Position numbers and translations under genes: made by a program
The notes under the pieces: generated by a model
What the model was told of the DNA's origin: nothing
Databases searched by the model: none
The model's input: only the letters and a program-made list of their open reading frames with translations
In this document: in pieces, positions 22,238 to 55,692 of the stretch
Layout: each line of letters begins with the position of its first letter
Position numbering within the stretch: position 1 is the first letter of the stretch
DNA from: Intestinibaculum porci
Lineage (GTDB): Bacteria; Bacillota_I; Bacilli_A; Erysipelotrichales; Coprobacillaceae
Assembly: GCF_003925875.1 (NCBI RefSeq)
Contig: NZ_AP019309.1
Span: 1,736,001-1,800,000, forward strand
DNA: 64,000 nt
Direction of reading: 5' to 3'

Positions 22238-22430
22238 GTGTTTAAATATACTCAAACACATCGAGATATGTAAGTTCTCACGAACATTACTTACTGCTTC
22301 TTCGTGTATGCTTTTGTAGTCACAAGTGACATACTACTCACAAGTTCTTGTACACTCCACAGTCGTAAATTCCCGACTAAGCCATCGGTACATACTTACA
22401 TTTGCTTGTTTATGCAATTTTGTAAGTTTT
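22238..22430 (-). ncRNA. Candidate omega (guide) RNA at the 3' end of tnpB
   Basis: About 170 non-coding bases lie between the tnpB stop and the inferred element end. They contain potential stems such as GTCG with CGAC (AGTCGGGAATTTACGACT) and CACAAGTGA/TCACAAGTTC-like repeats. In IS200/605 and IS607 elements this position encodes the RNA that guides TnpB cleavage. The call rests on position; folding was not computed. Confidence 0.4.
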
Positions 22431-23570: not shown

Positions 23571-24171
23571 CCCTTTCTATTTGCTTTTTATACTTACGAA
23601 ATCCGTACAGCCTGCAAGAGAATACATGGAGTATTGAAATAATATCCTGCACAAGTTCTTCCTGCGGCGATAGATCTTCATTATTAACGATCACTATGGT
23701 TGTATTAAACTTCATACAGAATTTTTCAAACCAGTCATAACCAAATCTGATAAATCTATCTTTGTGCGTGACTATGATCGTTTTAATTTTTCGTTCCGTT
23801 ACTTCATCTAATATTTGATTCCACTTTTTGCGGTTGTAATTAAGACCGCTTCCGTATTCTTCAATGCATTTGTCAACAATGATACCTTTTGCATTACAAA
23901 ACTGTCGTAAAAATGTGACTTGGTTCTTTAAATCATCTTTTTGATTTCTTGTAGACACTCTGGCATAAATAACAATTTGGCGATGATCGTTTTCAGTATT
24001 TATGCCTTTGAATTGTAGATATTGGTCGTAAGTATAATAACGTCTATTAGTTGGAGTGCGATTTGCTTTTAAAATTCCTTCCCTGTCCCAACGCTGTAAT
24101 GTTTTTACAGAAACACCTAATAATTCAGCAAAATCTTTTGGTTTGTAATTCGTGATATTTGATGTATTCAT
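23503..24171 (-). CDS. tnpA: IS607-type serine recombinase transposase TnpA
   Basis: The protein of about 222 residues begins with a MerR-like helix-turn-helix (KPKDFAELLGVSVKTLQRWD, with a wing at RRYYTYDQYL). A serine resolvase domain follows, with the nucleophile in IVIYARVSTRNQKDDL and later motifs EYGSGLNYNRK and VTHKDRFIRFGYDWFE. It would excise and insert the element through a phosphoserine intermediate. The ATG at 24171 is favoured by GGAGG six bases upstream; an adjacent ATG at 24174 is possible. Confidence 0.93.
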   Translation of the reverse strand: MNTSNITNYKPKDFAELLGVSVKTLQRWDREGILKANRTPTNRRYYTYDQYLQFKGINTENDHRQIVIYARVSTRNQKDDLKNQVTFLRQFCNAKGIIVDKCIEEYGSGLNYNRKKWNQILDEVTERKIKTIIVTHKDRFIRFGYDWFEKFCMKFNTTIVIVNNEDLSPQEELVQDIISILHVFSCRLYGFRKYKKQIERDEEIAKELQDRNSSNTRAESQD

Positions 24172-24200
24172 CATATGCCTCCATGAGCACATTTAAACAC

Positions 24201-36297: not shown

Positions 36298-36322
36298 ACA
36301 AAAAAGGACGTATAAACGTCCT
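36298..36322 (-). terminator. Terminator at the end of the pilC-pilT-ACT operon
   Basis: The stem AGGACGT/ACGTCCT overlaps the stop codon of the ACT-domain gene and is followed on the minus strand by TTTTTTG. Confidence 0.88.
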
Positions 36323-36713
36323 AAGCAGTTGTATCACCCATCTCATTGGTGATTTTACAGCCATTCTGTTCGAGCGTATAGAGAGCTTTGGTGAAATGTT
36401 CTTCTTTTAAGAAGATATAATCCATGTTGACATCAGAGGTCATAATAATCGGAATGCCCGCTTCATCAAGCACTGATGAAATAGTCGACAAGGCCCCGGC
36501 ATTACAGGTATACAAAGTATCCGCAAATTTAAATCCCTTCCAGCCATCTTCTCTTAAGATCGTATGTTCTGGGGTATAGTCCATCGGACAAATTAAAGTC
36601 ATATTTTCTTTTGAGACAGATAAAAATGTATACGGCTGACTAAAGTCAACTTCACTAGGATCAGCGATGGTCGAAACACTCATCAGATCCGGTATCAGAT
36701 TAATATTCATCAT
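36321..36713 (-). CDS. ACT-domain protein (CASTOR/COG3603-like)
   Basis: The 130-residue protein matches the stand-alone double-ACT family: WKGFKFADTL, then GALSTISSVLDEAGIPI and a conserved MDYIFLKEEHFTKAL strand-helix. Such domains bind amino acids as regulatory ligands. It lies 12 bases after pilT as the last gene of the pilus operon, so an amino-acid sensing role linked to pili is possible but may be accidental. GGAGGAGCA precedes the ATG. Confidence 0.8.
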   Translation of the reverse strand: MMNINLIPDLMSVSTIADPSEVDFSQPYTFLSVSKENMTLICPMDYTPEHTILREDGWKGFKFADTLYTCNAGALSTISSVLDEAGIPIIMTSDVNMDYIFLKEEHFTKALYTLEQNGCKITNEMGDTTA

Positions 36714-36725
36714 TGCTCCTCCTTT

Positions 36726-37778
36726 TTAATAAAATAGTTCTCGCAATTCATTCGGGTTATCAGTAATCGCAAAAGCACTTTCTCGGCTGATCTTGCCCGC
36801 GCGAATCAGCTTTGCTAACGACGCATTCAGTGTTTCCATGCCGACTTTAGCGCCAGTTTGAATCATTGAATTGATCTGATGACCCTTATTTTCACGAATC
36901 AGATTGGAAATAGCTTCATTGACAATCATAATTTCCGTCGCGGCAACGCGGCCATTGGTATCGACGCGCGGCAGCAGCGTCTGGGTGACAACAGCTTTTA
37001 GCACCCCGGCTAACTGGACACGGACCTGAGCCTGCTGGTGATTCGGGAAAACGTCGATAATACGGTCGATCGTTTTCGCAGCCCCGATCGTATGTAAGGT
37101 CGAAAAGACTAAGTGACCCGTTTCGGCTAAGGTAATCGTTGCCTGAATCGTTTCAAAGTCACGCATTTCTCCCACTAATACAACATCCGGGTCTTCACGC
37201 ATCGCACTACGCAAAGCGGTCGCAAAGCTATCAACATCATGGCCGATCTCACGCTGATGGATCAACGCCTTATCTTCATGATACAGGTATTCGACTGGAT
37301 CTTCAATCGTTAAAATATGACAAGGACGCGTATGATTGATTTCATCAATCATCGCAGCTAAGGTTGTTGACTTCCCGCTCCCGGTTGGACCGGTTAATAA
37401 AACGAGGCCACGCGGTTCTTTGGTAAAGGAAGAAAGCACGCTTGGCAGTCCTAATTCATCCAAGGTACGAATATTTTCATAGATGACACGGATCGCCGCC
37501 GATAAAGCACCCTGTTGAGCATAGACGTTGACACGGTAACGGAAGCTGCTTTCAACATAGACAAAGTCTAAGTCTTCCTGTCTTTCTAAACGACTGGTAT
37601 CTTCTTTTTCAATTAAAGTGCGGATCATTTCTTTCGTCTGCTCAGCAGTGAAAGTCATATTGGGGAAAGGCATCAGTTTCCCATCTAAACGGGTTAAAAC
37701 CTGACCTTTTTCATCAATATGAACATCGGAGAAATTGGAAAAACGGGCTTTTTCGAGGACCTGATCTAAAATATTCAT
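36726..37778 (-). CDS. pilT: Type IV pilus retraction ATPase PilT
   Basis: The 350-residue hexameric ATPase has Walker A GPTGSGKSTTLAAMID, the Asp box IEDPVEYLYHEDKALIHQRE, Walker B DPDVVLVGEMRD and the His box TGHLVFSTLHT. A C-terminal region like the retraction motif (AISNLIREN) is also present. It powers pilus disassembly and twitching. It starts 5 bases after pilB and is followed by an ACT-domain gene. Confidence 0.95.
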   Translation of the reverse strand: MNILDQVLEKARFSNFSDVHIDEKGQVLTRLDGKLMPFPNMTFTAEQTKEMIRTLIEKEDTSRLERQEDLDFVYVESSFRYRVNVYAQQGALSAAIRVIYENIRTLDELGLPSVLSSFTKEPRGLVLLTGPTGSGKSTTLAAMIDEINHTRPCHILTIEDPVEYLYHEDKALIHQREIGHDVDSFATALRSAMREDPDVVLVGEMRDFETIQATITLAETGHLVFSTLHTIGAAKTIDRIIDVFPNHQQAQVRVQLAGVLKAVVTQTLLPRVDTNGRVAATEIMIVNEAISNLIRENKGHQINSMIQTGAKVGMETLNASLAKLIRAGKISRESAFAITDNPNELRELFY

Positions 37779-37783
37779 AACTA

Positions 37784-39463
37784 TTACTCCTCATAATAAG
37801 ATACACGTTTTAATTCTTCCATCGTCGTGACACCCTCTTCGACTAATTTTTCGGTTGCTTCAAAAAGAGTTTCATAATGCTGGGAAGATTTCGCATAGGC
37901 TTTTAAATCGTCTAACTGGGCATTCTGAGCGATCATCCGTTTTAAATGCCGATCGATGGTGACGATTTCATGCACCGCTACACGGCCTAAATAGCCCGTA
38001 TTATTACACATATTACAGCCGACAGCTGTCGGCACGGCGGTAATCTTTTTCGTTAACAGTTTTGCATCATTTGCGCTTGGCGCGACTAACTGTCCACAGT
38101 AAGGACAGACCTTACGGACTAATCGCTGGGCGACAACACCAACTAAAGAAGAGGCGACTAAGTATGGTTCAACGCCCATATCTTCTAATCGGATGACGGT
38201 TGATAACGAATCATTGGTATGCAGCGTGGAGACAACTAAATGCCCGGTAATAGCGGAACGGACAGAAATATCCGCCGTTTCATTATCACGGGTTTCACCA
38301 ACCATGATAATATCCGGGTCCTGTCGTAAGATCGCTCGTAAGCCGGCTTCAAAAGTCATCCCCGCCTGGTTGTTGACCTGCATCTGATTGATATGTTCTA
38401 ACTGCTCTTCAACAGGATCTTCAATCGTTGTAATATTAACCGGTCTTTTCGCTAAGGATTTCATAATCATATACAGCGTTGTTGTTTTCCCGGAGCCAGT
38501 TGGGCCAGTGACATAGATGATGCCATTAGGCATTTCCATCATATGTTTCATCTTTTCATAGTTTTCTGGTGTCATCCCAAAAGTATCAGAGTGATCAATC
38601 GTGGCATTGGTATTTAAATAACGCATAACGACTTTTTCACCATGAACAGTTGGAATCGTTGAGACACGTAAGTTTAAAGACTGACCATTAATTGTCGTGA
38701 CAATATGGCCATCCTGAGGCACCCGCCGTTCACTGATATCCATATTCGCCATAATTTTAATACGAACGATCAGCGGCGGATGAATCTTAGCCTTTAAACG
38801 CAAAGCTTCGATTAAGGAACCATCAATACGCATGCGGACAATGGTTTCTTCTTCGAAAGGTTCAATATGAATATCGGAAACTTTATCACGATAACCGCGA
38901 ATCAATAAGGAATTGATCAGTTTTACAACCGGGGTATCATCTTCATCCGCATTGTAAAGATCTTCTTCATCAAGGGCATACATATCCGCATTTTCATTAA
39001 TATCTTCAGCGGCGGTTTTCGAGTTGATTTCTGAATAATAGTAATCAATGGCATTAGAGATATCCTCTTTTAAGGCAATGTTGATGGTGAGATGCTTATT
39101 GGTCACCATGCGGATATCTTCGATGCCGTAATAGTTTAATGGATCGGATGTCGCAATCGTTAAGTCATTGCCATCTTCACTGCGATCAATCGCAATCATG
39201 TTATATTTACGAGCTAATTCTTCTGGAATTTCTTCTACCGCTTCAACTTTCACATTATAAGTTTCCAGAGAAATGAGCGGGTAGCCTAGCTTTTCTGATA
39301 ACACCGCCGCAATCTGCTCTTCTGTCACGAAGCCTAAATCTACCAAGTGCTCCCCAATCTTTTTCGAGCGATCGTTTTTCTGCGCATCCAGGGCAACTTT
39401 TAACTGATCCTCGGTGATATAGCCATCTTCAACCAAGGTATCCCCTAATCTTAAGTTCTTCAT
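37784..39463 (-). CDS. pilB: Type IV pilus assembly ATPase PilB with MshEN-type N terminus
   Basis: The 559-residue ATPase begins with two consecutive motifs, RLGDTLVEDGYITEDQL (about 5-21) and KIGEHLVDLGFVTEEQI (about 35-51), that match the MshEN cyclic di-GMP-binding pattern. The motor follows, with Walker A GPTGSGKTTTLYMIM, IEDPVEEQLEHINQMQV and DPDIIMVGETRD. The zinc-binding cysteines CPYC and CNMC lie near the C terminus. It drives pilus extension. The N terminus suggests direct control by the cyclases encoded nearby. Confidence 0.95.
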   Translation of the reverse strand: MKNLRLGDTLVEDGYITEDQLKVALDAQKNDRSKKIGEHLVDLGFVTEEQIAAVLSEKLGYPLISLETYNVKVEAVEEIPEELARKYNMIAIDRSEDGNDLTIATSDPLNYYGIEDIRMVTNKHLTINIALKEDISNAIDYYYSEINSKTAAEDINENADMYALDEEDLYNADEDDTPVVKLINSLLIRGYRDKVSDIHIEPFEEETIVRMRIDGSLIEALRLKAKIHPPLIVRIKIMANMDISERRVPQDGHIVTTINGQSLNLRVSTIPTVHGEKVVMRYLNTNATIDHSDTFGMTPENYEKMKHMMEMPNGIIYVTGPTGSGKTTTLYMIMKSLAKRPVNITTIEDPVEEQLEHINQMQVNNQAGMTFEAGLRAILRQDPDIIMVGETRDNETADISVRSAITGHLVVSTLHTNDSLSTVIRLEDMGVEPYLVASSLVGVVAQRLVRKVCPYCGQLVAPSANDAKLLTKKITAVPTAVGCNMCNNTGYLGRVAVHEIVTIDRHLKRMIAQNAQLDDLKAYAKSSQHYETLFEATEKLVEEGVTTMEELKRVSYYEE

Positions 39464-39477
39464 AAAGGACTCCTTTC

Positions 39478-40023
39478 TTAATTATAGTAATATAATTTGT
39501 ATTTTTTCTTATTCAGCTTTGTATGATCAATACTTAAATCATACGTCTCTTCACCGGTTGGTAACCGTTTATCAATACTGTTTTTTAAATCAATCGATAA
39601 CAATTTGAGCGACTGACGCATACTGTAGCTGCGCCCTTTCTTAGTAATCGTTAAGGTAAAATCGATACGTGATTTCGAGCGGATATAGCCCACGTAAGTC
39701 ATCGCCACCTGACGATCCTCAAACCATTCTGCTTTAAAAATTGGATGTTTGTCTTTATAGAGAATACCATTTTGGATATAAAGACAATGCCAATCATGCT
39801 TTTTATTAGGCCGATGTCTGTTATTGGTGACATCATGGGCATAGACCATCTCTCCTCGCATAAAGGCAAAGATCTTGCGACAGTCTTTCTCTAAAGGATC
39901 CTGATTTTCATGCATCACCTCTAAAGCATTCTGGTGAAGCTTATAGCCAGCGAAAAAGATGATGATCAAAAGCAGGACAAGAGCCCCAATGGTAATGATT
40001 TTTTCTCTTCTTTTCTGACTCAT
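39478..40023 (-). CDS. Bitopic membrane protein in pilus operon, unknown function
   Basis: The 181-residue protein has one N-terminal membrane segment (IITIGALVLLLIIIFFAGY) and an extracytoplasmic beta-rich, Lys-rich domain. It lacks a prepilin cleavage motif. Its spacing (DCRKIFAFMRGEMVYAHDV, then ILYKDKHPIFKAEWF) loosely recalls ComGF-like minor pilins, but this is speculation. The ATG at 40023 follows GGGAGGG. Its place between pilO and pilB suggests a role in the pilus assembly complex. Confidence 0.65.
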   Translation of the reverse strand: MSQKRREKIITIGALVLLLIIIFFAGYKLHQNALEVMHENQDPLEKDCRKIFAFMRGEMVYAHDVTNNRHRPNKKHDWHCLYIQNGILYKDKHPIFKAEWFEDRQVAMTYVGYIRSKSRIDFTLTITKKGRSYSMRQSLKLLSIDLKNSIDKRLPTGEETYDLSIDHTKLNKKKYKLYYYN

Positions 40024-40042
40024 AAACCCTCCCAATGAAAAG

Positions 40043-40063
40043 AATATGGTGACTCACCATATT
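40043..40063 (-). terminator. Hairpin between pilO and the next gene
   Basis: A perfect 9-bp stem (AATATGGTG/CACCATATT) with a 3-base loop is followed by CTTTTC on the minus strand. It is a weak terminator or mRNA-stabilising element inside the operon. Confidence 0.5.
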
Positions 40064-40709
40064 ACTTTTTAATCATATATACCGCGAACTGAATGGTGAA
40101 GCTATCTTCACTCTTCGTATCGCTAGATGTCGATGCCGGGGTATAACTTAATCCCGTCACCCCAACACTTTTCGTATCACCTTCGATATTTTGTAGTAAA
40201 TCACTGACCTGATCAATTTTCCCATTGACTGTTACATCGACATATTTCGTGACCAGTTTCGCATTTGTAGAACTCGCTGCTTGAGTGTTGGTGCTCGTCG
40301 TAGAAGATGATGAAGATGAACTGTTTGTCGTGTTATTACTGCTTGAAACATCATCCTGCGCGTCAGAAATCGTTAAATTCGTTGGCGTTAAGTTTGCGGA
40401 TTTGATTTCATCCGTGAACATTTCAGAAATCTTTTCATTCTTAAGAACTTTATAATACTTCTTCGTTAAAGATTTGTATGTCTGCGTTTGCGCCGCCAAC
40501 TGACTAGGCGCATTTTGATACTGCGTTAACTGAGATTTTAATTCCGCTAAGGTTGTTTCCTTCTGAGAAAGCAGATTCTTTTGTTTGCGATAGTTTTCTA
40601 AACTTGGCTTGATCGCAAAGAACCAGCCTGCCATCACCAATAAGAAAACGAGTAAAATATAAAGTAACTGTTTCTCTCTTTTCGAGAGAGCACTATACAC
40701 TTCTTTCAT
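40062..40709 (-). CDS. pilO: PilO-like inner-membrane pilus alignment protein
   Basis: The 215-residue protein has a short cytoplasmic N terminus, one membrane helix (LLYILLVFLLVMAGWFFAI), a coiled coil (about 35-100) and a small alpha/beta domain at the end, the layout of PilO. A Ser/Asn/Thr-only stretch (about 125-150) is inserted before the final domain. It follows pilN by 12 bases. With PilM and PilN it should link the motor to the pilus. Confidence 0.82.
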   Translation of the reverse strand: MKEVYSALSKREKQLLYILLVFLLVMAGWFFAIKPSLENYRKQKNLLSQKETTLAELKSQLTQYQNAPSQLAAQTQTYKSLTKKYYKVLKNEKISEMFTDEIKSANLTPTNLTISDAQDDVSSSNNTTNSSSSSSSTTSTNTQAASSTNAKLVTKYVDVTVNGKIDQVSDLLQNIEGDTKSVGVTGLSYTPASTSSDTKSEDSFTIQFAVYMIKK

Positions 40710-40721
40710 GTTCTCGCCTCC

Positions 40722-41393
40722 TTACTTTAATACCATTGTCACGGTAAAGGTATATACTGTTTCTGTCTGCGTCGTTACATTTGCGGCAGTGGACTTATTG
40801 CTACTTACTGTATTGCTAGTAGTATCGGTATTGCTTGTTGCATCAACCGTATTTTGCGACTGCGTATAACCGGCATAATTAATATTTTTATAAAGCTTCG
40901 AGCTGCGTAAATCACTGACAAACATCGTAATATCATCAGGATCTTCAGCGCTGCCCTGTAATGTTAAAGTGGAAGTCGAAGACGTTTCCGTAGGCTGGGT
41001 GAAGCTTAAAGAAGTAATATCAATACCATTATCATCACAGAAGCCTACAATTTTATTAAGTTTCGTGGAAGACATCGAAACATAATTACTAATCTTGCGA
41101 TTGATTTCATTCATTGCACTGACCGCTTCCTGCATCGTCTTGAGTTCACTGTAAGACTGTTGATCCGTCGCTTCAATAGCGGCTTTGGTCGTGCCAATCT
41201 TTGTATTGATATCACTGATTTGTTTTTGAGTATTAGAGGTTACAAAGAATAAAGCGCCACAGGTGATCGCGATCACTAATAAGATACTTAATGGCGCCGC
41301 AATCAGCTTTAAGAGATCATATCTATGAGGATCTTTGAGAGAGTCTTCATAGGCTTTTAAAATATCAAGTTGTTTATTTTTAATTCCACTCAT
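40722..41393 (-). CDS. pilN: PilN-like pilus assembly protein
   Basis: The 223-residue protein has a basic cytoplasmic N terminus (YEDSLKDPHRYDLLK), one membrane helix (AAPLSILLVIAITCGALFF), a coiled coil and a ferredoxin-like C-terminal domain. A Thr/Ser/Asn-rich segment is present near the end. In other systems the PilN N terminus binds PilM. It lies between pilM (3 bases upstream) and pilO. Confidence 0.82.
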   Translation of the reverse strand: MSGIKNKQLDILKAYEDSLKDPHRYDLLKLIAAPLSILLVIAITCGALFFVTSNTQKQISDINTKIGTTKAAIEATDQQSYSELKTMQEAVSAMNEINRKISNYVSMSSTKLNKIVGFCDDNGIDITSLSFTQPTETSSTSTLTLQGSAEDPDDITMFVSDLRSSKLYKNINYAGYTQSQNTVDATSNTDTTSNTVSSNKSTAANVTTQTETVYTFTVTMVLK

Positions 41394-41396
41394 ATT

Positions 41397-42293
41397 TTAC
41401 GCTCCTATCAGATATCCCAAAGTATATAAGTAATGATTCAAACCAATGACTTCGTTATTGACCGCATAAACAGCTCTTGGCGTCGGTAATAACTTAGCCT
41501 CTAAATCCATTAAGTTGGTAATGCGCTCAAAGATCTTTTCGCCTTGGGCACGCGTAATGCCAGTAAAGTAGATATTACTAAATGGGGCATTGTTCTGTGA
41601 GGAAGAGGCAAACTGCTGGAGCTGTGACACCGCTCTGGTAATATCGCCAGAAAAAGCATCGGCATCTTCAGGATCCGAGAATAAACGGTTACGCGTCGTC
41701 ATGACATAGTTCCCGTTGGCAAAAACGGAGGAAGTAATGTTATTGCCATCAACGCTCATAATCGCATAAGAAGCATCAATTAAGCCAGGAATATATTCCT
41801 TGAGCTTAATAAGAACATCAACAGAAATATCAATGAATTCAATAGCAATTTCCATTTCTTCAAAGAGCTGTAAATAGCTTTCTAAGAAGCCTTTTTCAAT
41901 CGCCATCCCCAAAATGCGGGATGACCCTTTAACTTCTTCGTTTTCTCCTAAATATGCATAATCATAAATCAATGTATCTTCCCCATCATATAAGCCTGAT
42001 AATTCGCCCTGGAGATACTCTAAGATCTGCTTATGTCGCAATTTTGGAATGACTATCTGCTTGGTAATAATCTTATTAGAATCTAAGATTAAGGTACAGG
42101 CATCAAGCTGATATTTGCTTTTTAATGACTGCAAAGCGGTTTTAATGGACGCATCATCAATGATCACCCCATTGATCATCGCCCCTTCTTCAATATTTAT
42201 TTTTTCAAACGCGTCGACTCGCACGGCATCACGTTTCCGCTCGCCGGCAAGAAATTCCACGTTGGTATTTGTGATATAGATTACATTCGCCAA
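41397..42293 (-). CDS. pilM: PilM-like actin-fold pilus assembly protein
   Basis: The 298-residue protein has the actin-like/PilM layout: an early strand MANVIYITNTNVEFLAG, the segment YAIMSVDGNNITSSVFANG in the second lobe, and NNAPFSNIYFTGITRAQG near the end. It forms a cytoplasmic ring partner of PilN and PilB. The start is a TTG eight bases after GGGGG. It lies 12 bases after pilC. Confidence 0.82.
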   Translation of the reverse strand: MANVIYITNTNVEFLAGERKRDAVRVDAFEKINIEEGAMINGVIIDDASIKTALQSLKSKYQLDACTLILDSNKIITKQIVIPKLRHKQILEYLQGELSGLYDGEDTLIYDYAYLGENEEVKGSSRILGMAIEKGFLESYLQLFEEMEIAIEFIDISVDVLIKLKEYIPGLIDASYAIMSVDGNNITSSVFANGNYVMTTRNRLFSDPEDADAFSGDITRAVSQLQQFASSSQNNAPFSNIYFTGITRAQGEKIFERITNLMDLEAKLLPTPRAVYAVNNEVIGLNHYLYTLGYLIGA

Positions 42294-42305: not shown

Positions 42306-43493
42306 CTATCCGCCTAGACTGTTGTATAAACTGTATAGTGGCAGCATGACTGATAAAATAACACTGCCAATCATGAACCCTAAAATAATAATCATCGCTG
42401 GCTGTAAGACTGCGACTAACTGTTCGGTTGCGATTTCCGCTTCGAAATCGAAGTCACTGGCAATCGAATCTAACATTGTATCTAATCGCCCCGCTTCTTC
42501 CCCAATAAAAACCGAAGAAGAAAGCTTTGGATCAAAGCCTTTGACACGATCCATCGCAGCGCTTAAAGTGGCGCCGGAACGAACATCATTAATGACATCA
42601 TCGAACTGCGCTTCGATAAAGGTATTATTGACAGTTCGGCGCGCTAAACGCAAACTCGTTAATAACGAAACGCCAGAAGTATAGAGTGATGATAATGAGC
42701 GGGCAAAACGTGCCGTATAAATGATTTGTGTTAAATGAGAAATCTTTGGAATAGAAACTTTAACGCGATCCCACTGGTATTTCACTTGAGGAATCCGTAA
42801 AGCTAAATTCACTAAAGCGATAATCGATAAAATAATAATGATAAACCAATACCAGGAATGAATCATAAATCTTGATAATCCAAACATAAACTTCGTAATA
42901 GCTGGAATTGGATAACCATTAAAGACATCGAAGAAACGTGGCAGGATTACCGTAAAAACAACGACCATTACGATTAAAGTCACGACCAGCAAAATGATTG
43001 GATACATCATTGCGGCCTGTACTTTTTTTGATAAACGATTGTCTCTGGTATACTGATCGGCTAACTTAAGGAATGTCGTATCCATCGCCCCGCTCGCTTC
43101 CGCCGCTTTCACCATATTGATCATCAGCGGCGGGAAGACTTCTCCCTGCAGCTCTAAAGCGCGTGACATCTGATAGCCCTGTTGTAATGATATATAAATC
43201 TGACGATAAATTTTCTTTAATTTTTTATTTGGCTCACGGCGGACAACAATTGAAACAGCCGAAATGAGGGAAATCCCTGAATTGAGCATGGTCCCCATCT
43301 GTCGACATAAATCGGCGATATCGGTCGCTTTAAGCTGACGATGTTTATAAGCATCAACCACTTCTTTACAGCTGATGAGATAAAGTGCATCATTGCTTAA
43401 TGAAGCTCTTAAAGCCGCCTCATTTTCAGCTTCCCGTGACCCACGAACGCGTTTCGAATGAATATCCATTGCATAATACTTATATGTCGCCAT
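42306..43493 (-). CDS. pilC: Type IV pilus platform protein PilC
   Basis: The 395-residue protein has two GspF-type domains (about 55-180 and 255-380), with the family signatures GSGAMDTTFLKLADQY-like (EASGAMDTTFL) and EEAGRLDTMLDSIA. Three membrane helices are at about 165-190, 210-230 and 365-390. It is the inner-membrane platform rotated by PilB and PilT. It has its own promoter and a strong GGGAGG site. It begins the pilC-M-N-O-(x)-B-T-ACT operon. Confidence 0.94.
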   Translation of the reverse strand: MATYKYYAMDIHSKRVRGSREAENEAALRASLSNDALYLISCKEVVDAYKHRQLKATDIADLCRQMGTMLNSGISLISAVSIVVRREPNKKLKKIYRQIYISLQQGYQMSRALELQGEVFPPLMINMVKAAEASGAMDTTFLKLADQYTRDNRLSKKVQAAMMYPIILLVVTLIVMVVVFTVILPRFFDVFNGYPIPAITKFMFGLSRFMIHSWYWFIIIILSIIALVNLALRIPQVKYQWDRVKVSIPKISHLTQIIYTARFARSLSSLYTSGVSLLTSLRLARRTVNNTFIEAQFDDVINDVRSGATLSAAMDRVKGFDPKLSSSVFIGEEAGRLDTMLDSIASDFDFEAEIATEQLVAVLQPAMIIILGFMIGSVILSVMLPLYSLYNSLGG

Positions 43494-43591: not shown

Positions 43592-44356
43592 TTAGAGACC
43601 GTATAATGCTAAATAAGTATGCAAGAGCTGACTGCCATACAGTAAAGCAATAAAGCATCCTGCTGATAAAAATGGGCCAAAGGCCATATGAGCCTGTAAT
43701 TTCGTATTTTTGGTGGCTAATAAGATAATCGCATATATGCCAGCACTGATAATAGCAATAAAAGTGCCAACAAGAACGTTCACTGTCCCTAGTAAGAAGC
43801 CAAGCATGGCAATGAGTTTGATATCACCGCCGCCAAAAGCCCCTTCTTTAATATAGCATAAGCCAAGCATCGGCGCAGAGACAATAAAGAAGCCGATCAC
43901 GCGTGAAACAAGTGAAACAGTCGGATCAATGAAGGCAAAGAGAATCGCCATGATCCCTGTCGCCACAACTAACTGATTAGGAATCTCCATCGTATCAATA
44001 TCAATAAAGGTAACAGCAATGAGAATTTCCGCTAAGATAAAGGATGCAATTGTCATTAGACTAAGTCCATAATGGTAAAAACATAAACAGCCTAATAAGC
44101 CGCCAACAATTTCTAAGAGCCAGCCGCGTATACCGATCTTCGCCCCGCAGTAATGACATTTTCCGCGATAAATAACATAAGAAATAACCGGAATCAGATC
44201 ATACCACTTTAACTGTGTCCCGCAGCTATCACAGCGGGAACGGCCTTTAGAAATAGGAATACCTAATGGTAAACGATAAATCACGACATTAATAAAAGAT
44301 GCAATACAAGCCCCAAAGACAAAGGCATAAATATATAAGAACGTAATAACTGACAT
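43592..44356 (-). CDS. pilD: Prepilin peptidase/N-methyltransferase PilD
   Basis: The 254-residue polytopic protease has the N-terminal methyltransferase zinc motif CDSCG and CHYCG. The two active aspartates are in FIDIDTMEIPNQ and GGGDIKL(IAMLG). About seven to eight membrane helices are present. It cleaves the leader of the prepilins in this locus before the conserved Phe. A TATAAT box lies about 25 bases upstream. Confidence 0.94.
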   Translation of the reverse strand: MSVITFLYIYAFVFGACIASFINVVIYRLPLGIPISKGRSRCDSCGTQLKWYDLIPVISYVIYRGKCHYCGAKIGIRGWLLEIVGGLLGCLCFYHYGLSLMTIASFILAEILIAVTFIDIDTMEIPNQLVVATGIMAILFAFIDPTVSLVSRVIGFFIVSAPMLGLCYIKEGAFGGGDIKLIAMLGFLLGTVNVLVGTFIAIISAGIYAIILLATKNTKLQAHMAFGPFLSAGCFIALLYGSQLLHTYLALYGL

Positions 44357-44409: not shown

Positions 44410-44616
44410 TATAAAAATTCACAGGCGTTCGGTGAATTGTTAAGAGATCTTTTGGAAATGACGAATAACCACTGTTAAATTTTTTTAGGGATTCTCTTTC
44501 TCCCGCTGCTTTATTTTTAACACGCCGGTCATATTAATACCGTTTTACGAAACATTATTCTATCTATTGTGACCTATATAATGTATAATAGAGATACTCA
44601 CAAGGGAGTATACATT

Positions 44617-45696
44617 ATGTCATCTTATTTACTTAAAAAAATCTATAATCGCTTTGATTATTTCGTCTCCGAGGAAGATATCTACCAGTTACTTTTAAAT
44701 CATGAGTTAAGTGATACCAGAAGAGGAATTCGTTTTATCTTTCCTCTTTATACGATCTTAATCATGTATTTCACTTATTTACGAATCATGGCTATCGGCA
44801 TGACGAGTATTTTAGGTATTATTGAAGCCATTGGTATGATCTTATTACTCGCTCAGCAGATGATCGTTGATCCGAGTATTATGTCTCATAGTAAACGAGT
44901 CTATACCATTGGATATGCCTCCATCAGCTATGTCTTACTATCCATGATTATCATCACCAGCTTATATCATTTGCCCCATCAAAATGGTAATCTGATCTTT
45001 ATCTGTTTATTTTTATCAATGCCCCTTTTCTTAATGGATCAAATATTAAGAATGTGGCTCTTTCAATCATTAATGGGTATGACCTGGTGCGTCTTTGCCC
45101 CAAGCTTTGATATGACCCTTAAGTTCTTTCTTACTTTAGTGACATTATTAGTCTATGGCTTACTCTATAATCGCTCTATTGATCTGTATTTAGAAAAGAT
45201 CTATATCTCTCAGCAGCATGCCATGGATGGCCTTACGAAAGTCATGACCAAAAAATCAGGAAAATATGCGATCGAACAGTTATTAACAGCTAATAAACCA
45301 GGTGCTCTTTTCATTTTTGACCTAGATAACTTCAAACACTTCAATGATACCTTTGGTCATGCCTATGGTGATGTTGTCTTACAGAAAGCCTCCACAGCTT
45401 TACGTTCCTCATTTCGTAAATCCGATATTATTATGCGTTATGGCGGTGATGAGTTTGTCGTCTTTATGGAAAATGGTACCTATTCCTCAGCCACCACAAA
45501 AGTCAAACAAATCCAGGAAGTTCTCAATAAGATTTCTCTTGAACAGCAGCATGAAATCACCTTCTCAATCGGTGTAGCCTTACAAAGTAAAGATATCTCT
45601 TTCCAGGATCTCTTCAATCAGGCTGATCAGGCTCTTTATTACGTCAAGAAATCTACTAAACATAATTATATGTTTTATTCGCCTTCTCTTTCCTAA
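44617..45696 (+). CDS. Membrane-bound diguanylate cyclase (GGDEF)
   Basis: The 359-residue protein has five to six N-terminal membrane helices (about 35-200) and a C-terminal GGDEF domain. The domain has LFIFDLDNFKHFNDTFGH, the intact signature RYGGDEFVVFME and FSIGVALQ. It makes cyclic di-GMP. The ATG at 44617 follows GGGAG. It is divergent from pilD and lies 42 bases before the pilin gene, so its product could locally control PilB. Confidence 0.9.
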   Translation: MSSYLLKKIYNRFDYFVSEEDIYQLLLNHELSDTRRGIRFIFPLYTILIMYFTYLRIMAIGMTSILGIIEAIGMILLLAQQMIVDPSIMSHSKRVYTIGYASISYVLLSMIIITSLYHLPHQNGNLIFICLFLSMPLFLMDQILRMWLFQSLMGMTWCVFAPSFDMTLKFFLTLVTLLVYGLLYNRSIDLYLEKIYISQQHAMDGLTKVMTKKSGKYAIEQLLTANKPGALFIFDLDNFKHFNDTFGHAYGDVVLQKASTALRSSFRKSDIIMRYGGDEFVVFMENGTYSSATTKVKQIQEVLNKISLEQQHEITFSIGVALQSKDISFQDLFNQADQALYYVKKSTKHNYMFYSPSLS

Positions 45697-45738
45697 ATTC
45701 CCTAATTACTATATAATGTCATTAAGGATGTGAGAGTT

Positions 45739-46257
45739 ATGAAAAAAAAAGGCTTTACCCTCATTGAAGTCATTGTCGTGATTGTCATCTTAGCTATCTT
45801 AATGGCTATCGCTGTACCATCTGTAATGTCTTATATGAATAGTGCTAATAAAGCGAAATACTATGCAGCCTCCAGAAGTGTGACACAAAAGGTTAATGTT
45901 GAATTAACTAAATTTTACACTGGCAGCAGTAATGTAAAAAACTATAATGCAGCAATCAAAAAAGCAGTTAATGCTTATAACAAATCTGTTACTGGTAACA
46001 CTTATGTTGTAGGTGTCCAAGTGAACTTTATTAAAAGCACTAATAATAGTACAAAAGATCCATTACCTTTTACAATCGTTGATTTTAAAGAAAATACACA
46101 AGATAATAATTATAATGCTCCAAATCAAGCAATGGCACCTGAGCGTATTCAATATCTTACTCTTTACTTTGCCGATCATGCAAATGACACAATTTCTAAT
46201 TATACATGCTATACACATATCTATCCAAATAAAAAAATTGAATATCATTCCAAATAG
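45739..46257 (+). CDS. pilA: Type IV major pilin-like prepilin
   Basis: The 172-residue protein has the class III leader MKKKG followed by FTLIEVIVVIVILAILMAIA, with Phe at +1 and Glu at +5. A membrane/assembly helix and a Lys/Asn-rich globular head follow. A GTG three codons upstream is possible, but AAGGATG spacing favours the ATG at 45739. It converges with the minor-pilin operon, and a group II intron now occupies the junction right after its stop codon. Confidence 0.93.
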   Translation: MKKKGFTLIEVIVVIVILAILMAIAVPSVMSYMNSANKAKYYAASRSVTQKVNVELTKFYTGSSNVKNYNAAIKKAVNAYNKSVTGNTYVVGVQVNFIKSTNNSTKDPLPFTIVDFKENTQDNNYNAPNQAMAPERIQYLTLYFADHANDTISNYTCYTHIYPNKKIEYHSK

Positions 46258-48216
46258 GATAGAGGGAAATTAATCCCCCTTCCATTGCACCATACGTACG
46301 GATCTCGTATATGGCGCTACATTACATTATACACAATTTATCTAGATAGTAACTAAGGGGATTGACCAAACCTGGGCAGTCTCCTTTATCTTTCTCAAGA
46401 AATTTTGGACTTAAAATAAAATTAACAACATTACCGGTTGCTTTACGGTACCATCCCAGACGCGAATAAGCTACTTTAAAGATATCTTCGAATGAAAAAT
46501 GACAATGCATAATCTTATTCAAATATGTAAGATGTCTAAAGATCGTTTTGGGTCTTTTCCACATTTTTAAAATGATAACCCTGATCTTGTGACGTAACCA
46601 CTTGCCCAGCTCAATAAGAAAGCTTTTCATCATACCAATACGGAAGTAATGAATCCATCCTCTCAGTATTTGATTGACTTTCGTAATTGTATCTGCAAGC
46701 ATGCAGGCTACAGCTCTTTTTCTCAAAAGAACCACTTTAAGCTTGTCATAAAGTCTCTTCTTTCTATCATCAGCAGGTTTACATCTCCATTGTCCTTTAG
46801 AACGCAAGAACGTAAAGCCAAGAAATATACTCTTGTTGGGGCGTACAACTTTGGTTTTTGTTGCATTAACCTTCAAGAATAGCTTTCTTTCTATCCATGA
46901 GTTCATAGACTTCATCACCCGGTTTGCTGACTTTTCACTTTTTACGTATATACATGTGTCATCAGCGTCCTTGAGAAATTTAATCCTCGCTTTTCACCCT
47001 TTATCGAGCTTATCAAGATATATATTACTGCAGATCACGCTTAAGGGTCCGCCCTGAGGCATACCCAGCGGTGTAGGTGATATTATCCCATTCTCCATCA
47101 CTCCGGCTTTGAGAAAAGAACGGATAAGATGAAGAATATTCCTATCATTCATCTTTTCTCTAATAATGGATATGAGCTTGTCCTGATTGACTGTATCAAA
47201 GAACTTCTCAATATCCAAGTCAACGACCCATTCATATCCTGCATTAAGATAACCCAGGACCTCATGAACTGCCGTATGGCAACTTCTACCAGGTCTAAAG
47301 CCATGACTATGCTCGCTGAACAACGGCTCATAAATTTCAGACAACTGCTGAGCGACTGCCTGCTGGATAACCCTATCAACAACCGAAGGGATTCCAAGCG
47401 GTCTCTTTTTGTTGCTGTTTGGCTTTTCAATATAAACCCTCTTAACAGGAAGAGGACAGTATCTTCTTTCTCTGATTTGAGCACAGATCTCTTCTTCATG
47501 TCCAAAGAAATACAGGTCCAATTCTTCGACGGACATGCCATCGATTCCTGCTTTCCCTTTGTTATTCTTAATTTGATGCAATGCTCGCATCAGGTTCTCA
47601 TGATCTAAAATCTTGTCTGTTAGATTCATTGCTGCTTTCTCCTTCTATAGTAAATTATTTAGAAACATCCCAGTTTCAGTATTTGATCATAGACAAGGTA
47701 CGCCCTATCCAGCGGATCACCTAACTTGCGGACTATCTAAATATTGCAAATAGTGAATTAGCACTATGTAACATTAGGTCCTTCGATATCTCTATCTACT
47801 ACGACCTCAGCTGACTTCTAGTGGCAACCTTTTTCGTCCGACGTTCACCCATACTGTTTAAAAGATTCAGGAATTCATCGTCCACTAGATCTCCCTAAAG
47901 AGCATTGAGATTTAGGCATCCTACAAGGATGCTCCCTCTCGTACTCGGGGTAAGGACACACATCACATTTGAATCCTCACTAGCTCTGAATTTACCTTAC
48001 TGATATATACGTCTACCCTTTAGGGCTTTGGCTTGATGTGCAGCCTTACGAGGCAGCTAGGCCTAATTCAGTTTCTGTTCGTAGCCACAAGGATTTTGCT
48101 ACACCGCTTCCTTCATCCATAACATCACTGTCATAAACTTGCGGTTCACTATACTTGGCGGTAGATTCCCGTAGTTGATTTCACAATCAACAAGATGTGC
48201 GCCATGCCCGGCACAC
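46258..48216 (-). mobile_element. Group II intron with broken reverse transcriptase
   Basis: The about 1.96-kb element lies on the minus strand. The 5' end reads GTGTGCC (GUGYG consensus) at 48216. A 590-base non-coding 5' part (domains I-III) is followed by the RT gene in the domain IV position. A domain V-like hairpin (46284-46320, GCGCCATATACGAG ... CGTACGTATGGTGC) and a domain VI-like stem complete it. The 3' end abuts the pilin stop codon. The 5' end is 7 bases from a strong terminator hairpin, the insertion preference known for bacterial class C introns. Exact 3' boundary is uncertain by a few bases. Confidence 0.85.
46322..47629 (-). pseudogene. ltrA: Group II intron reverse transcriptase/maturase, inactivated
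   Basis: The reading frame of 436 codons carries RT blocks (GIDGMSVEEL, KRPLGIPSVVDRVIQQA, GFRPGRSCH, VVDLDIEKFFDTV, GMPQGGPLS). It then meets a TGA at 46994-46996. It continues in the same frame, with the catalytic YADD box changed to DADD (KFLKDADDTCIYVKS), then the maturase X domain (GWIHYFRIGM). Loss of the Tyr and the stop together show that the protein is non-functional; movement or splicing would need a maturase in trans. Confidence 0.9.
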
Positions 48217-48252: not shown

Positions 48253-49625
48253 TTATGCATATGAAGCTGTTGCTGAATAAGAGGAATTAATTCCACTTGA
48301 ATCAGAACTGCCATCTATGGCAATACGGTTCACCCAAATTGTTACCGTTTGTGCTGATTTATCAACTTTCATAAATAAAGAGAGTCTAAAACGATTATTG
48401 AGATCCATAATTGGTGATCCAAATAACAAGCTATTATAATCATAGTTTATACCACGCCAAGACTTTACTTTTTTTTCAGGTTTTCCATATATTGGATTAC
48501 CTACTTTAGTTAAATCAAAACCAATACCATTTGCGAATGTTTCATAGAAAAATCCATCATTCTTCTTAAAGCCTTGTGTGTAGCCTGATGCAGTACCTAT
48601 CTTAGGATAATTTTTATAATAGTTTTGTGTTTCATATTGTTGACCATAATCGTAATAACCATTTTGAGGATTTCTATCATTATTTTGCGTATAATAATTT
48701 GTATTAGCTTCTACTGGCCAGCCACCTTCTCTAAAGTGAAGGATCTCTAGACCATTTCCATAGATCGCAGAGCGATAGCTTCCTGATAAGCAATTATCAA
48801 TAGCTGAGGTCCCTTTTTCTTTAATAATACCAGCAGCATATTTTGCTAATTTATTAAGAACCACGTTATCTTGCTTTTGACGAATAGAATCAGGTGTCAT
48901 TTTAATCAAATCGATATCATCTGTATATTCTGGAACATCATAACTAAACATATACGTTGCGTATAATGTTACATTCCTAACTTGTCCTGTCGCTACAGCA
49001 TTTTTAAAATCCATAAAATTTTTTCTTGTAATTAACCCCTGCCAATTATTGCTGACACTTGCAATCTCCGGATTTCCATTAGTATACCTACGACCTGTCG
49101 ATGGAGCTCTATATGTCTTTAAGCTAGTAGACCAGCCAATAAATGCCCAATCCCCCATTCATCACTCATTTTTTGTAATGCACTATAATTGGTACCTGGT
49201 AAATCATCAAACTTTTGAATACCATAATCTTTCAATTCAGATAATTTTTCTACATTAATATTACTTTTATTATCTGAATAATTCAAAGTATAATCAAAAA
49301 CCATACCTAGTTTAACATCAATACTCTGATAAGTAAGCTTGTTTTTCGAGCTTTTATCGGTATAACTAGATACTCGAACACGAACAGAATTTTTCTTATT
49401 ATCTGAGTCTGTACTAACTAATTTATATTCTGTCTTATATTGAATATCGTTACTATCAGACTGAATCGTATCAAAAGCTGCATCGCTTTCCTTTTTATAA
49501 ACATTAGCATCATTAAAATATCTTAATGTTTGTGCTAAAGATGTCGCAAGAATTCCTGTAATCATTGTCACTAATGCCAATGCTACAATAACTTCTACTA
49601 ATGTAAAACCATTTTGATTTTTCAT
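48253..49625 (-). pseudogene. Large prepilin with a one-base frameshift in a G-tract
   Basis: The first frame (from 49625) gives MKNQNGFTLVEVIVALALV, a canonical prepilin leader and helix, and about 165 residues. It ends out of frame at MSDEWGIGHLL. A second frame takes over with MGDWAFIGWSTSLK and runs to 48253. Five G (minus strand, 49152-49156) would need to be six to restore EWGDWAFIGW, giving about 458 residues. The rest is clean, so the break is recent, phase-variable or a sequencing error. GGAGATG precedes the ATG. Confidence 0.85.
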
Positions 49626-49637
49626 CGTGATCATCTC

Positions 49638-50105
49638 CTATTTATATGTCCCTATTTCCCAGTTATTGTTATTTTGTTGGCAGGTGAGAGTAACAGTAGA
49701 GCTCTCACCACCTACTTTAACAGTGACTTTAAAAACCATTTTATCTTCACTTTCACGAGTAATCGTTCCCGAAGAAGACTGAATTCTTGAAATCTTTTCA
49801 CCTGTATCATTACCATTTGCATCAACCTTATGGATCTCAATATTTTTAAGATTCATCGTTTCTCCAACATTAGGGACCCAATAAGGATTACTTGACTTAT
49901 CACCGTAAGAAACAAGATAATTGCCTAGAACTGTACATTCACCTTTCGCATACAAATAAGCTTGTCTTTCACTATACTCATTGATCGTATTGCGATAATA
50001 AGCGCCCGCTAACATATAAAAGCCGCCAGTTAATACCATGACAATTAAGAGAACAATGACAGCAGTCGTAATCGTCGAACCTTTATTATTATTTAAATGT
50101 TTCAT
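49638..50105 (-). CDS. Minor pilin-like protein, PilX/GspK-type N terminus
   Basis: The 155-residue protein has a short basic leader ending in KG, then STITTAVIVLLIVMVLTGGF, a pilin-type hydrophobic helix without Glu at +5. Lack of Glu5 is a hallmark of GspK/PilX tip minor pilins. The head includes YAKGECTVLGNYLVSYGDK, with two cysteines in all. It is the middle gene of three in the minor-pilin operon, 11 bases after the large prepilin. Confidence 0.8.
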   Translation of the reverse strand: MKHLNNNKGSTITTAVIVLLIVMVLTGGFYMLAGAYYRNTINEYSERQAYLYAKGECTVLGNYLVSYGDKSSNPYWVPNVGETMNLKNIEIHKVDANGNDTGEKISRIQSSSGTITRESEDKMVFKVTVKVGGESSTVTLTCQQNNNNWEIGTYK

Positions 50106-50116
50106 GACCTGTCCTC

Positions 50117-52153
50117 CTATCCATTGTTCAATTCATTAACACTTTTACGTGTCCAATATGTATTCATCATTGCATCATTATCAATAGTAAATTCCTTATT
50201 ACGATTTATTTCATTACTCCAAACGCTATATTTTTGAGAATTAGTCTTGTTTAATGTAAAAATCATGGCCTTCTTTATATATTTTTTGGTAGTTTCATTA
50301 TTAAACATTTCATAATAATAATCGTCAGGGATTACCTGATTATTACGATTAGCATGAATTTTGTATTTATCCATTAATTCGAATTTATATGCTAGATATT
50401 CATAAGAGGTCTCAGTCCCCAGCGCTGAAACATTAGCTGAATAAGTAGCCGTTTTCTCAGTCCAACCCCAAATAATGCTGTAATGATAATAGTCAATATT
50501 CATTTTTTCAGATATTTTCCCGTTTGATAAGAATTGGATATAATTTTTTTCATTACCATCTGTATTTAGTCGAGAAGTTCCGATTCTTATTGAATCACCT
50601 GCTTCATAGCTGCTATTTGGCATATATTCGTTCTCTAACAGCTTCCACCCCGACATGAAGCTGCCACCTGGAACAAGATCATCTTTATTTGTTGTTGCAT
50701 CAGGCTCATAAATCTTCTTATACAAGCGATAGTAACAATCCTTATTTCCTCCATTTTCACCTGAATTTGCAACTTTTACTTGAATTAAATTACCAACATT
50801 AAAGTTATCCGTATTAAATGTGTTTTTATTATAAACATTCAGATTAGTTTCAGAATCTTTTGTTACTGTCGCGTTTTCATCATAAATAGGAACACCATCA
50901 TACTTGTGGGAATAAATCTTATAATTTGGCAATGAAGTACGTGCATTATCATTAATCGGTGATGATTTTGGTGCCTGTAAATTGAAAAGATTACTTAATT
51001 GTCCATTTCCTAGATTTGCAAAAGTCGTATCAAATCCAGGTGTTGATAAGTCGATTTCGTTTTCTTTTCCTAAACAAATCCATCGTGGGTTATCGCGTTG
51101 TATACCATTCCCCTGATAGTTTGTTGCATTGTCACGTGTCGGTCTATTATAACTTGTTTTATCCCAATTGGCTTTATAATAATAACCCTCAAACAAAACA
51201 ACATCCCCCTTAAGATACGTGTTTTCATCCAGATAATTTTTATCTATACGTTGCCACGTTGATGATCTATTTTCTGGAGGATTATAGGAATTAATATCAT
51301 CATTAGTAATTTTAATCCACCAATAACCCTGATAATAAGTAAAATCTCCAAGGCGATAAGTGTTGTTCGAAGGAATCTTAAATAATTCATCATCATTATT
51401 ACTTGTTCCAGTTACATAGTAACCGCGGTTAAGATAGCTTGACATAAATGCTAATTTATCTGCTATTGTTCCAGTATATGAACCTTTTTGATTATTATTG
51501 TTATCACCACTTGATGAAGAGCTTCCCGCTCCTTTGTAGTAAAGTTTCATCGTACTAGAAAGGATTGAGGTTGAATCTTTCCCAATACCTAAGCTTCTAA
51601 TATCACCATTATATGGAGAGGTTTCTCCATCTTTCAAACTTTTTACATTAGAAAACTTAACGGTATCCCCTTTGGTATATTTCTCATCACTATTAGAGAA
51701 TACATAGCTGAATTTAGCACGAAATTCAGATTCCTCTGAACTTTCTGCATTACTACGATAAGCTGTGACGCTCATTTTAAGTACGTTTGCTTTTTCATTT
51801 GTATCATCTAATGATTTCTTATTATAGTAATTTACATTAAGAACCGGCTTTCCACTTTCATTATTCTTATCGCCACGATATAACATATTATGATCTACAT
51901 AGAGCCATTTCCAGTCATCACCTGATGGCTTTTTAGAAGAAATAACAACAGTGCCAGCATTAAGAACCTGTGATCTAACGTAACTTTCTATATTATCTAG
52001 TGAATCTTTTTTTAACTTTGTTGTACTCAAGTTACCAAACAAATCAAATGATGTTAAAATCATTGACAATGTAACTGCAATTACAATAGAAGCAATGGCT
52101 GTGGAAACAATAATCTCTATTAAAGTAAATCCCTTTTCGTTCCTTTCTAACAT
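50117..52153 (-). CDS. Very large prepilin with carbohydrate-binding-like modules
   Basis: The 678-residue protein starts MLERNEKGFTLIEIIVSTAI, a clear prepilin leader (G/F cleavage, Glu5). The head is about four times the usual size. Two or three repeated units (about 245-300, 302-365, and a weaker one near 515) have the pattern TYLKGDVVLFEGYYYKANWD ... PRWICLG, very like CBM5/12 chitin-binding modules with their conserved aromatic residues. A Ser/Asn-rich linker precedes them. It probably sits at the pilus tip as an adhesin. It leads the operon behind a TGGTATGAT extended -10. Confidence 0.85.
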   Translation of the reverse strand: MLERNEKGFTLIEIIVSTAIASIVIAVTLSMILTSFDLFGNLSTTKLKKDSLDNIESYVRSQVLNAGTVVISSKKPSGDDWKWLYVDHNMLYRGDKNNESGKPVLNVNYYNKKSLDDTNEKANVLKMSVTAYRSNAESSEESEFRAKFSYVFSNSDEKYTKGDTVKFSNVKSLKDGETSPYNGDIRSLGIGKDSTSILSSTMKLYYKGAGSSSSSGDNNNNQKGSYTGTIADKLAFMSSYLNRGYYVTGTSNNDDELFKIPSNNTYRLGDFTYYQGYWWIKITNDDINSYNPPENRSSTWQRIDKNYLDENTYLKGDVVLFEGYYYKANWDKTSYNRPTRDNATNYQGNGIQRDNPRWICLGKENEIDLSTPGFDTTFANLGNGQLSNLFNLQAPKSSPINDNARTSLPNYKIYSHKYDGVPIYDENATVTKDSETNLNVYNKNTFNTDNFNVGNLIQVKVANSGENGGNKDCYYRLYKKIYEPDATTNKDDLVPGGSFMSGWKLLENEYMPNSSYEAGDSIRIGTSRLNTDGNEKNYIQFLSNGKISEKMNIDYYHYSIIWGWTEKTATYSANVSALGTETSYEYLAYKFELMDKYKIHANRNNQVIPDDYYYEMFNNETTKKYIKKAMIFTLNKTNSQKYSVWSNEINRNKEFTIDNDAMMNTYWTRKSVNELNNG

Positions 52154-52271: not shown

Positions 52272-53495
52272 TTATAAGGCAGATATGCGATCCTTCCCCT
52301 GGCTTTTCGATTGATAGAGAGCCTGATCCGCTCGATTAATAATATCTTTAGTATGCTGATCGGTTTCTTTGATCATGGTCAAACCAATAGAGACAGTTAC
52401 TTCCTGCTCTATAGCTATCGTATGGACACTTTTTTTCATTTTTAAGGCAATGTCTTTTGCATGATCAGCATCAACATGTTCAATGATACAAACAAATTCA
52501 TCACCGCCATAACGGAAGAGCACATCTGAGAAGCGGATCACTGATTTAATTTTCTCAACAACCTGAATAAGTACTTCGTCCCCTGCTTTATGCCCTAAGT
52601 GATCATTCACTAGTTTAAAGTCATCAATATCAATCATGAAGACTGCACACTGCGATATATGTCTTGATAGTAACGAACTCAAATATTTCTCTCCATAGTT
52701 TCTGGTATAGGCTTTGGTGAGATAATCATAATCGATTTGGGTTTGTAATCGTTCTTCTTTTTTCGCAAAGTATTGTCTTTGCTTTTTACGATCAAAATGA
52801 TAGGAAAAAGCAAAGAATAGAGTAATTAATAATTCAATAAATGCAATCCCCGTAAAGGCATACTTATCAGATGTCTTACGAATTCTTTCGACATAAGTAT
52901 GAATATCATTAAGGGAAACACCCATACAAATAATCCAGTTATAATCCTTATATAAATAAGCATAAGTTAATTTAGGTGTTGCCTGCGGATGATGATTATC
53001 TTTGAAATAATAGGAATAAAAGAAAGATGTATGCTTCTTAACACCTGACAATTCCATTTGGTAAGGTTTTTGTCCTTTTACATCTTTAGTATTAGTGGAA
53101 AGCCATTGCCCTTCCGTTTTGGGTAATTCCGGATGAATCAGTCTTTTCGCATAGCGATTGCCGCCATTAAAATTATGGATTTCATTAATCCAAATATAAG
53201 ATCCAAAGTTAAACTTAGCATGATGTATATAATCTCTTAAGGCTTTTTTCTGGATCTTCTGAATTTGTTTCTTAGTATAATTCGGATGTACTTTTCGAAT
53301 GTCACGATCGCGAATACGTATCGCTGTTACAAAATTATTCACTGTATATTTAAGAGTATTCTTTTTTAGTGTAACAACGTTTTCCTTGGTCTCCCGCGCA
53401 TACTCTTTTGTTACGAAGAAATAAAGGGCAGCGGTCAAAGAGAATGTGACAATAACCGTGATCAATGCTTTTATGAAATAACGAAAACGATTCAT
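52272..53495 (-). CDS. Cache-domain diguanylate cyclase (GGDEF)
   Basis: The 407-residue protein has an N-terminal membrane helix (about 8-28) and an extracellular single-Cache-like domain with GSYIWINEIHNFNGG and YLYKDYNWIICMGVSL. A second helix is near 205-225, and the GGDEF domain has the intact signature RYGGDEFVCIIEH. An outside ligand should control its cyclic di-GMP output. It lies between the minor-pilin operon and two more cyclases on the same strand. Confidence 0.92.
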   Translation of the reverse strand: MNRFRYFIKALITVIVTFSLTAALYFFVTKEYARETKENVVTLKKNTLKYTVNNFVTAIRIRDRDIRKVHPNYTKKQIQKIQKKALRDYIHHAKFNFGSYIWINEIHNFNGGNRYAKRLIHPELPKTEGQWLSTNTKDVKGQKPYQMELSGVKKHTSFFYSYYFKDNHHPQATPKLTYAYLYKDYNWIICMGVSLNDIHTYVERIRKTSDKYAFTGIAFIELLITLFFAFSYHFDRKKQRQYFAKKEERLQTQIDYDYLTKAYTRNYGEKYLSSLLSRHISQCAVFMIDIDDFKLVNDHLGHKAGDEVLIQVVEKIKSVIRFSDVLFRYGGDEFVCIIEHVDADHAKDIALKMKKSVHTIAIEQEVTVSIGLTMIKETDQHTKDIINRADQALYQSKSQGKDRISAL

Positions 53496-55634: not shown

Positions 55635-55692
55635 AACGTTCACCCTATATGGGTATTGTAACACGATTTTTTAAATTAATACATGCCTATCG

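Follow-up and report, generated by a model that had tools for sequence, protein, structure and literature searches.

A probable cyclic di-GMP receptor domain in the type IV pilus extension motor PilB of Intestinibaculum porci

The MshEN domain is recognised by two 24-residue motifs of the form RLGxx..G..xxxxLxxxLxxQ, separated by a 5-residue spacer. In MshE, loss of glycines 11 and 40 abolishes binding of cyclic di-GMP (PMC5013675). The first Gram-positive case is PilB2 of Clostridium perfringens, which binds cyclic di-GMP (Hendrick 2017, as related in PMC6958937 and PMC11656802). Raised cyclic di-GMP raised surface pilin in this organism (PMC6958937), and binding left the ATPase rate of PilB2 unchanged (PMC11656802). 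Work on Thermus PilF has shown which departures from the consensus can be borne: Lys or Leu at motif position 1 is tolerated, and the consensus has been broadened accordingly, while PilF with the last Gln replaced by Glu still binds at 460 nM, about the affinity of MshE (PMC11731258). Ile in place of Leu at both motif II positions cost a rebuilt Thermus domain 2-3 fold (PMC12002112). The GSPII-A domain of Thermus PilF carries Arg at the last-Gln place, among several changes linked to non-binding, and restoring the consensus in the full domain still gave no binding (PMC12002112); a motif is therefore no proof of binding. The literature library searched yielded no paper dealing with pili and cyclic di-GMP in Erysipelotrichales.

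The pil operon and its motor

The genome is a single contig of 3.21 Mb, of which positions 1,736,001-1,800,000, a stretch of 64,000 nucleotides, form the window analysed here. It contains an ordinary Gram-positive pil operon, ordered from right to left as pilD, pilC, pilM, pilN-like, pilO-like, orf185, pilB and pilT. The pilus genes of the window are as follows.

36726-37778, minus strand: pilT, retraction ATPase lacking an MshEN domain (TIGR01420, 438.6 bits, above cut-off)
37784-39463, minus strand: pilB, type IV pilus extension ATPase of 559 aa, with an N-terminal MshEN domain at residues 1-148
39478-40035, minus strand: orf185, between pilO and pilB and conserved there in near relatives (synteny)
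40062-40709, minus strand: pilO-like (T2SSM, E 1.1e-08)
40722-41393, minus strand: pilN-like, placed between pilM and pilO (weak PilN match, E 2.8e-4, under cut-off)
41397-42293, minus strand: pilM (PilM_2, E 3.7e-08)
42306-43493, minus strand: pilC, platform protein (T2SSF, E 9.1e-56)
43592-44356, minus strand: pilD, prepilin peptidase (A24_N_bact and Peptidase_A24)
45730-46257, plus strand: prepilin, candidate major pilin (N_methyl, E 2e-09)
49119-49634, minus strand: minor prepilin, N-terminal part (N_methyl, E 1.6e-08), continuing in another frame at 48253-49158
49638-50105, minus strand: minor prepilin-like, matched by homologues in the corresponding position of relatives
50117-52153, minus strand: large minor prepilin (N_methyl, E 4.4e-07)

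A reading-frame check places pilB on the minus strand, the plus strand of 37784-39463 being full of stops. Profile searches match PilB to T2SSE (E 6.8e-126, 420 bits) and MshEN (E 1.1e-16), and TIGR02538 aligns end to end at 532.8 bits, under its equivalog cut-off of 675.65. The Walker A sequence GPTGSGKTTT and the zinc tetracysteine CPYC/CNMC are both present, as expected of a type IVa extension ATPase of the PilB/GspE family. The nearest PilB, at 82%, comes from an uncultured Erysipelotrichaceae bacterium, on the contig of the sole other genome of the genus that was compared; that of Kandleria vitulina, the other nearest named relative, stands at 72%. A family search with orf185 gave no match.

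Other features accompany the locus. An ACT-domain gene (36321-36713, minus strand) directly follows pilT, with 57% identity to its counterpart in the other genome of the genus, and is not found in Kandleria. The minor prepilin at 48253-49634 (minus strand) is apparently broken by a frameshift, its C-terminal part lying in a different frame. Between the pilin genes is a degraded group II intron (46322-48134, minus strand), its reverse transcriptase split over two ORFs, with group II intron RNA matches at 47778-47837 and 47958-48134. An IS607-type element (22291-24192, minus strand) encodes a serine recombinase and TnpB (22410-23570), and a RAGATH-18 RNA (22291-22363, 73.8 bits) lies 47 nt downstream of that TnpB, a guide-RNA arrangement of IS607 TnpB described in PMC11061315.

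Cyclic di-GMP motifs in the PilB N terminus

An initial sequence-only reading had proposed that PilB begins with the cyclic di-GMP motifs of MshE, spaced as they are there. Both motifs are present, and they belong to a full MshEN domain.

39380-39451, minus strand: motif I, PilB residues 5-28, RLGDTLVEDGYITEDQLKVALDAQ, with every key MshE position present
39290-39361, minus strand: motif II, PilB residues 35-58, KIGEHLVDLGFVTEEQIAAVLSEK, following a 6-residue spacer

The NCBIfam profile NF053729 ('c-di-GMP_motif') matches PilB residues 5-57 at 68.6 bits against a cut-off of 38, far beyond chance, and the motifs match the sequence of the MshE crystal structure (5HTL) with E 3.1e-20. Against the MshEN consensus, motif I is perfect. 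The correspondence to MshE is nonetheless inexact, for the spacer has 6 residues rather than 5 and motif II departs at four positions (R38K, L39I, L54I and Q61K in MshE numbering). PilB G7 and G37 are the equivalents of MshE glycines 11 and 40, and both are retained, as are Gly44 of motif II (PilB numbering) and D107, the equivalent of MshE D108. Loss of a key Arg, Leu, Gly or Gln had been named as evidence that would count against the domain; every key MshE position in PilB is present or conservatively replaced, with the single exception of the last Gln of motif II, which is Lys. The alignment of residues 1-60 to PF05157 that had been suggested is less apt: PF05157 does match PilB, but at residues 59-145, so the comparison would have fallen on the wrong half of the domain, and the profile to use is NF053729.

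An AlphaFold model of residues 1-149, built from 72 relatives, has a mean pLDDT of 95.6 and predicts the MshEN fold, a four-helix bundle with a C-terminal subdomain. Among solved structures the model comes closest to MshE bound to cyclic di-GMP (5HTL; TM 0.91, 1.5 A), with the non-binding GSPII-A and XpsE domains ranking behind.

Among 45 intact homologues of the order, Gly11, Gly40, Gln32 and Asp108 (MshE numbering) are each conserved in 45/45, and position 61 is Lys in 17, Arg in 15 and Gln in 13, with no other residue. Since every intact homologue has one of these three, we read Q61K as a tolerated variant, and we infer that a basic residue at position 61 could serve the phosphate. This variation from Gln to Lys or Arg points to a published consensus that is drawn too narrowly.

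Cyclic di-GMP genes in this genome and its relatives

Five GGDEF genes had been noticed near pilB. Profile searches bear them out at the distances claimed, all within 21.4 kb.

44569-45696, plus strand: GGDEF protein a, membrane-embedded (GGDEF, E 3.5e-32), with a complete catalytic set and an RxxD I-site
52272-53495, minus strand: GGDEF protein b, with a Cache sensor (GGDEF, E 1.5e-39; dCache_2, E 3.7e-16), a complete catalytic set and an RxxD I-site
53524-54552, minus strand: GGDEF protein c, a membrane protein (GGDEF, E 1.3e-14), with the signature letters kept and the usual catalytic Lys and Asp replaced
54564-55664, minus strand: GGDEF protein d, a tandem paralogue of c with 32% identity (GGDEF, E 2.2e-17)
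59490-60833, minus strand: GGDEF protein e, with an extracellular sensor region (GGDEF, E 1.6e-32) and a complete catalytic set, lacking an I-site

The GGDEF letters had been described as intact throughout, and they are kept in all five; residue inspection shows, however, that the usual Lys is missing from c and d, along with the N-D pair Asp and the C-terminal K..GR/K element, which makes them doubtful enzymes. As had also been noted, the window contains no EAL, HD-GYP or PilZ gene, and degradation was correctly placed elsewhere: 14 EAL domains are scattered over the chromosome, none of them in the window. Over the whole genome, about 41 genes carry 46 GGDEF domain matches, 44 of them at E 1e-6, and there is one MshEN protein, PilB.

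Searches for other receptors of cyclic di-GMP gave nothing over cut-off. No HD-GYP or PilZ domain was found in the whole genome, where the best PilZ match (E 0.32) was dropped, and no cyclic di-GMP riboswitch in genome or window, where the best RF01051 match (21.6 bits), antisense inside a transporter gene, was likewise discarded. PilB is thus the only recognised dedicated receptor, which probably makes pilus assembly one of the main direct outputs of the network in this genome. Receptors of no known domain escape such profile searches, and degenerate GGDEF or EAL proteins, or new folds, are possible further receptors. The genome offers a natural test of an old puzzle, namely how one small molecule is made by dozens of enzymes and read by few receptors; here the list of recognised receptors has one entry.

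The number of GGDEF genes follows possession of the PilB motor, both between and within genera. Across 43 genomes of the family, the median number of GGDEF domains was 26 in the 13 with PilB (one a contig-end fragment) versus 1 in the 30 without (Mann-Whitney, 4.6e-7), and an exact within-genus test over the four genera having both states gave 3/540. In a sister family of the order, where the search scored no more than 16 candidates in each genome, 33/40 genomes with MshEN had at least 10 GGDEF domains versus 6/132 without (Fisher, 1.8e-22). Stratification of both families by genus, leaving out zero-count genomes absent from the search output, gave p of about 1e-5. The genomes in all of these tests are relatives and not independent. 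PilZ occurs in three genomes of the family (G014, G017 and G039), all lacking an MshEN-type PilB; G039 combines 18 GGDEF domains with two PilZ domains. Some GGDEF-rich genomes, G012 and G015 among them, lack both MshEN and PilZ.

The ligand site itself was compared across 52 Erysipelotrichales genomes with an MshEN protein. Both glycines are retained in some copy in every genome with one or more GGDEF genes (49/49), whereas in 3/3 without GGDEF (G120, G137 and G181) the second glycine, Gly40, is Asp, Glu and Glu, respectively, in a gap-free alignment (Fisher, 4.5e-5 if the genomes are taken as independent). All three proteins retain an intact Walker A, and both full-length ones retain the zinc cysteines. 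All three lost sites fall within one genus, and may therefore reflect a single event; a fourth member of that genus has two GGDEF genes and retains the site. That GGDEF-free relatives lose the ligand contacts and keep an intact motor provides independent evidence of the importance of the site in Gram-positive pili. The NCBIfam motif cut-off was rejected as proof of a working site, as two of the three GGDEF-free PilBs also pass it (53.6 and 48.5 bits), and for this reason residues were inspected one by one. Four genomes of one other genus (L185, L207, L217 and L219) encode a second PilB with decayed MshEN motifs (G11 to Glu or Asp, G40 to Phe) alongside an intact one.

Interpretation and comparison with known systems

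PilB as a cyclic di-GMP receptor, the role proposed for it at the outset, is well supported by the profile match, by its key residues and predicted fold, and by the comparisons among relatives; we consider this role likely. As a type IVa pilus extension motor, PilB would bind one cyclic di-GMP molecule through its N-terminal MshEN domain, with motifs I and II each covering one guanine, and ligand binding would license pilus extension, as described for MshE, for PilB2 of C. perfringens and for Thermus PilF. The input would be the cell-wide cyclic di-GMP pool, which about forty GGDEF genes supply and EAL enzymes encoded across the chromosome degrade; the five neighbouring cyclases would at most contribute to this pool, forming no closed circuit. 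Binding itself, the direction of its effect (more cyclic di-GMP, more pili) and the choice of relevant cyclases are what we infer here, and the output step is uncertain because the ATPase rate of PilB2 is unchanged on binding.

Alternatively, MshEN could be a structural part of the motor, a ring contact to PilM and PilC, with cyclic di-GMP binding lost in this clade. Q61K and the 6-residue spacer would fit such a loss, as would the Pro found in place of the motif I Arg in many members of the family, and both Thermus GSPII-A (PMC12002112) and XpsE (PMC5013675) keep the fold and do not bind. Yet the positions that are invariant among intact copies are ligand contacts, with position 61 confined to Gln, Lys and Arg; the contacts disappear from genomes that lack GGDEF genes, with the motor still intact; and the PilF mutant with Glu at the same Gln still binds (PMC11731258). 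A purely structural role is, on this evidence, unlikely. The link between GGDEF genes and PilB might also reflect nothing but a shared lifestyle, surface-dwelling gut bacteria gaining both, while cyclic di-GMP acts through other, unrecognised receptors. Co-occurrence alone cannot show contact, and the GGDEF-rich genomes that lack MshEN and PilZ are in keeping with this account, but it leaves the decay of PilB ligand contacts in GGDEF-free genomes unexplained, and we judge it improbable.

A self-contained signal-to-motor circuit, as envisaged in the sequence-only reading, would have the five pil-locus cyclases feed PilB by proximity or contact, apart from the global pool. Their clustering is unusual: five GGDEF genes in 16.3 kb exceed chance in this genome (P 0.0017), gene a lies 33 bp upstream of the pilin gene, and GGDEF genes within ~30 kb of pilB are moderately over-represented in ten relatives (14 versus 4.4 expected), though several of them are in tandem. 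Interplay between pilus machinery and a cyclase has also been reported in Pseudomonas, in a reference cited in PMC11656802. As a conserved unit, however, the local cluster was ruled out by synteny, for it is absent beside the pil genes in Kandleria and most relatives. GGDEF genes adjoin the pil operon in one of ten other family genomes (G005, directly after pilT), and the other nine loci have none within ~9 kb of pilB, as far as their contigs reach. Forty-odd further GGDEF domains are unlinked and scattered genome-wide, two of the five neighbours lack the usual catalytic residues, and MshE made no cyclase contact in a two-hybrid test (PMC11656802). The closed circuit thus fails to hold up, and a dedicated local supply to PilB seems distinctly unlikely.

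With PilB read as a receptor of the cell-wide pool, a broader and more tentative proposal can be made, which we regard as possible though doubtful. Across this order of gut Firmicutes, the pilus motor may be the main, often the only, dedicated receptor of a very large network, with cyclases in the tens and neither PilZ, HD-GYP nor riboswitch, acting through a Lys/Arg-variant MshEN site, and gain or loss of the motor may drive expansion or collapse of the network. A PilB receptor is of a known kind; what is new is that, order-wide, the number of cyclases, the integrity of the site and the pilus motor are coupled.

Among described systems, C. perfringens PilB2 is likewise a Gram-positive type IVa extension motor with an N-terminal MshEN domain encoded in a pil operon, a likeness drawn by description; its strain has eight cyclase and phosphodiesterase genes in total, in contrast to the 46 GGDEF and 14 EAL domains here. 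Thermus thermophilus PilF GSPII-B (PMC11731258) is also the binding domain of an extension motor and can bear changes both at position 1 of the motif and at its last Gln, but PilF has three tandem domains and an affinity of 6 nM, whereas PilB has a single domain. The PilB of Paenibacillus thiaminolyticus (PMC9765702) likewise comes from a Gram-positive organism, and its predicted cyclic di-GMP site has a perfect consensus. V. cholerae MshE (5HTL, PMC5013675) has the same domain, with 37% identity over 140 columns and the predicted model within 1.5 A, and differs in its spacer of 5 residues; in PilB the spacer is 6, and motif II starts with KIG and ends in Lys rather than Gln.
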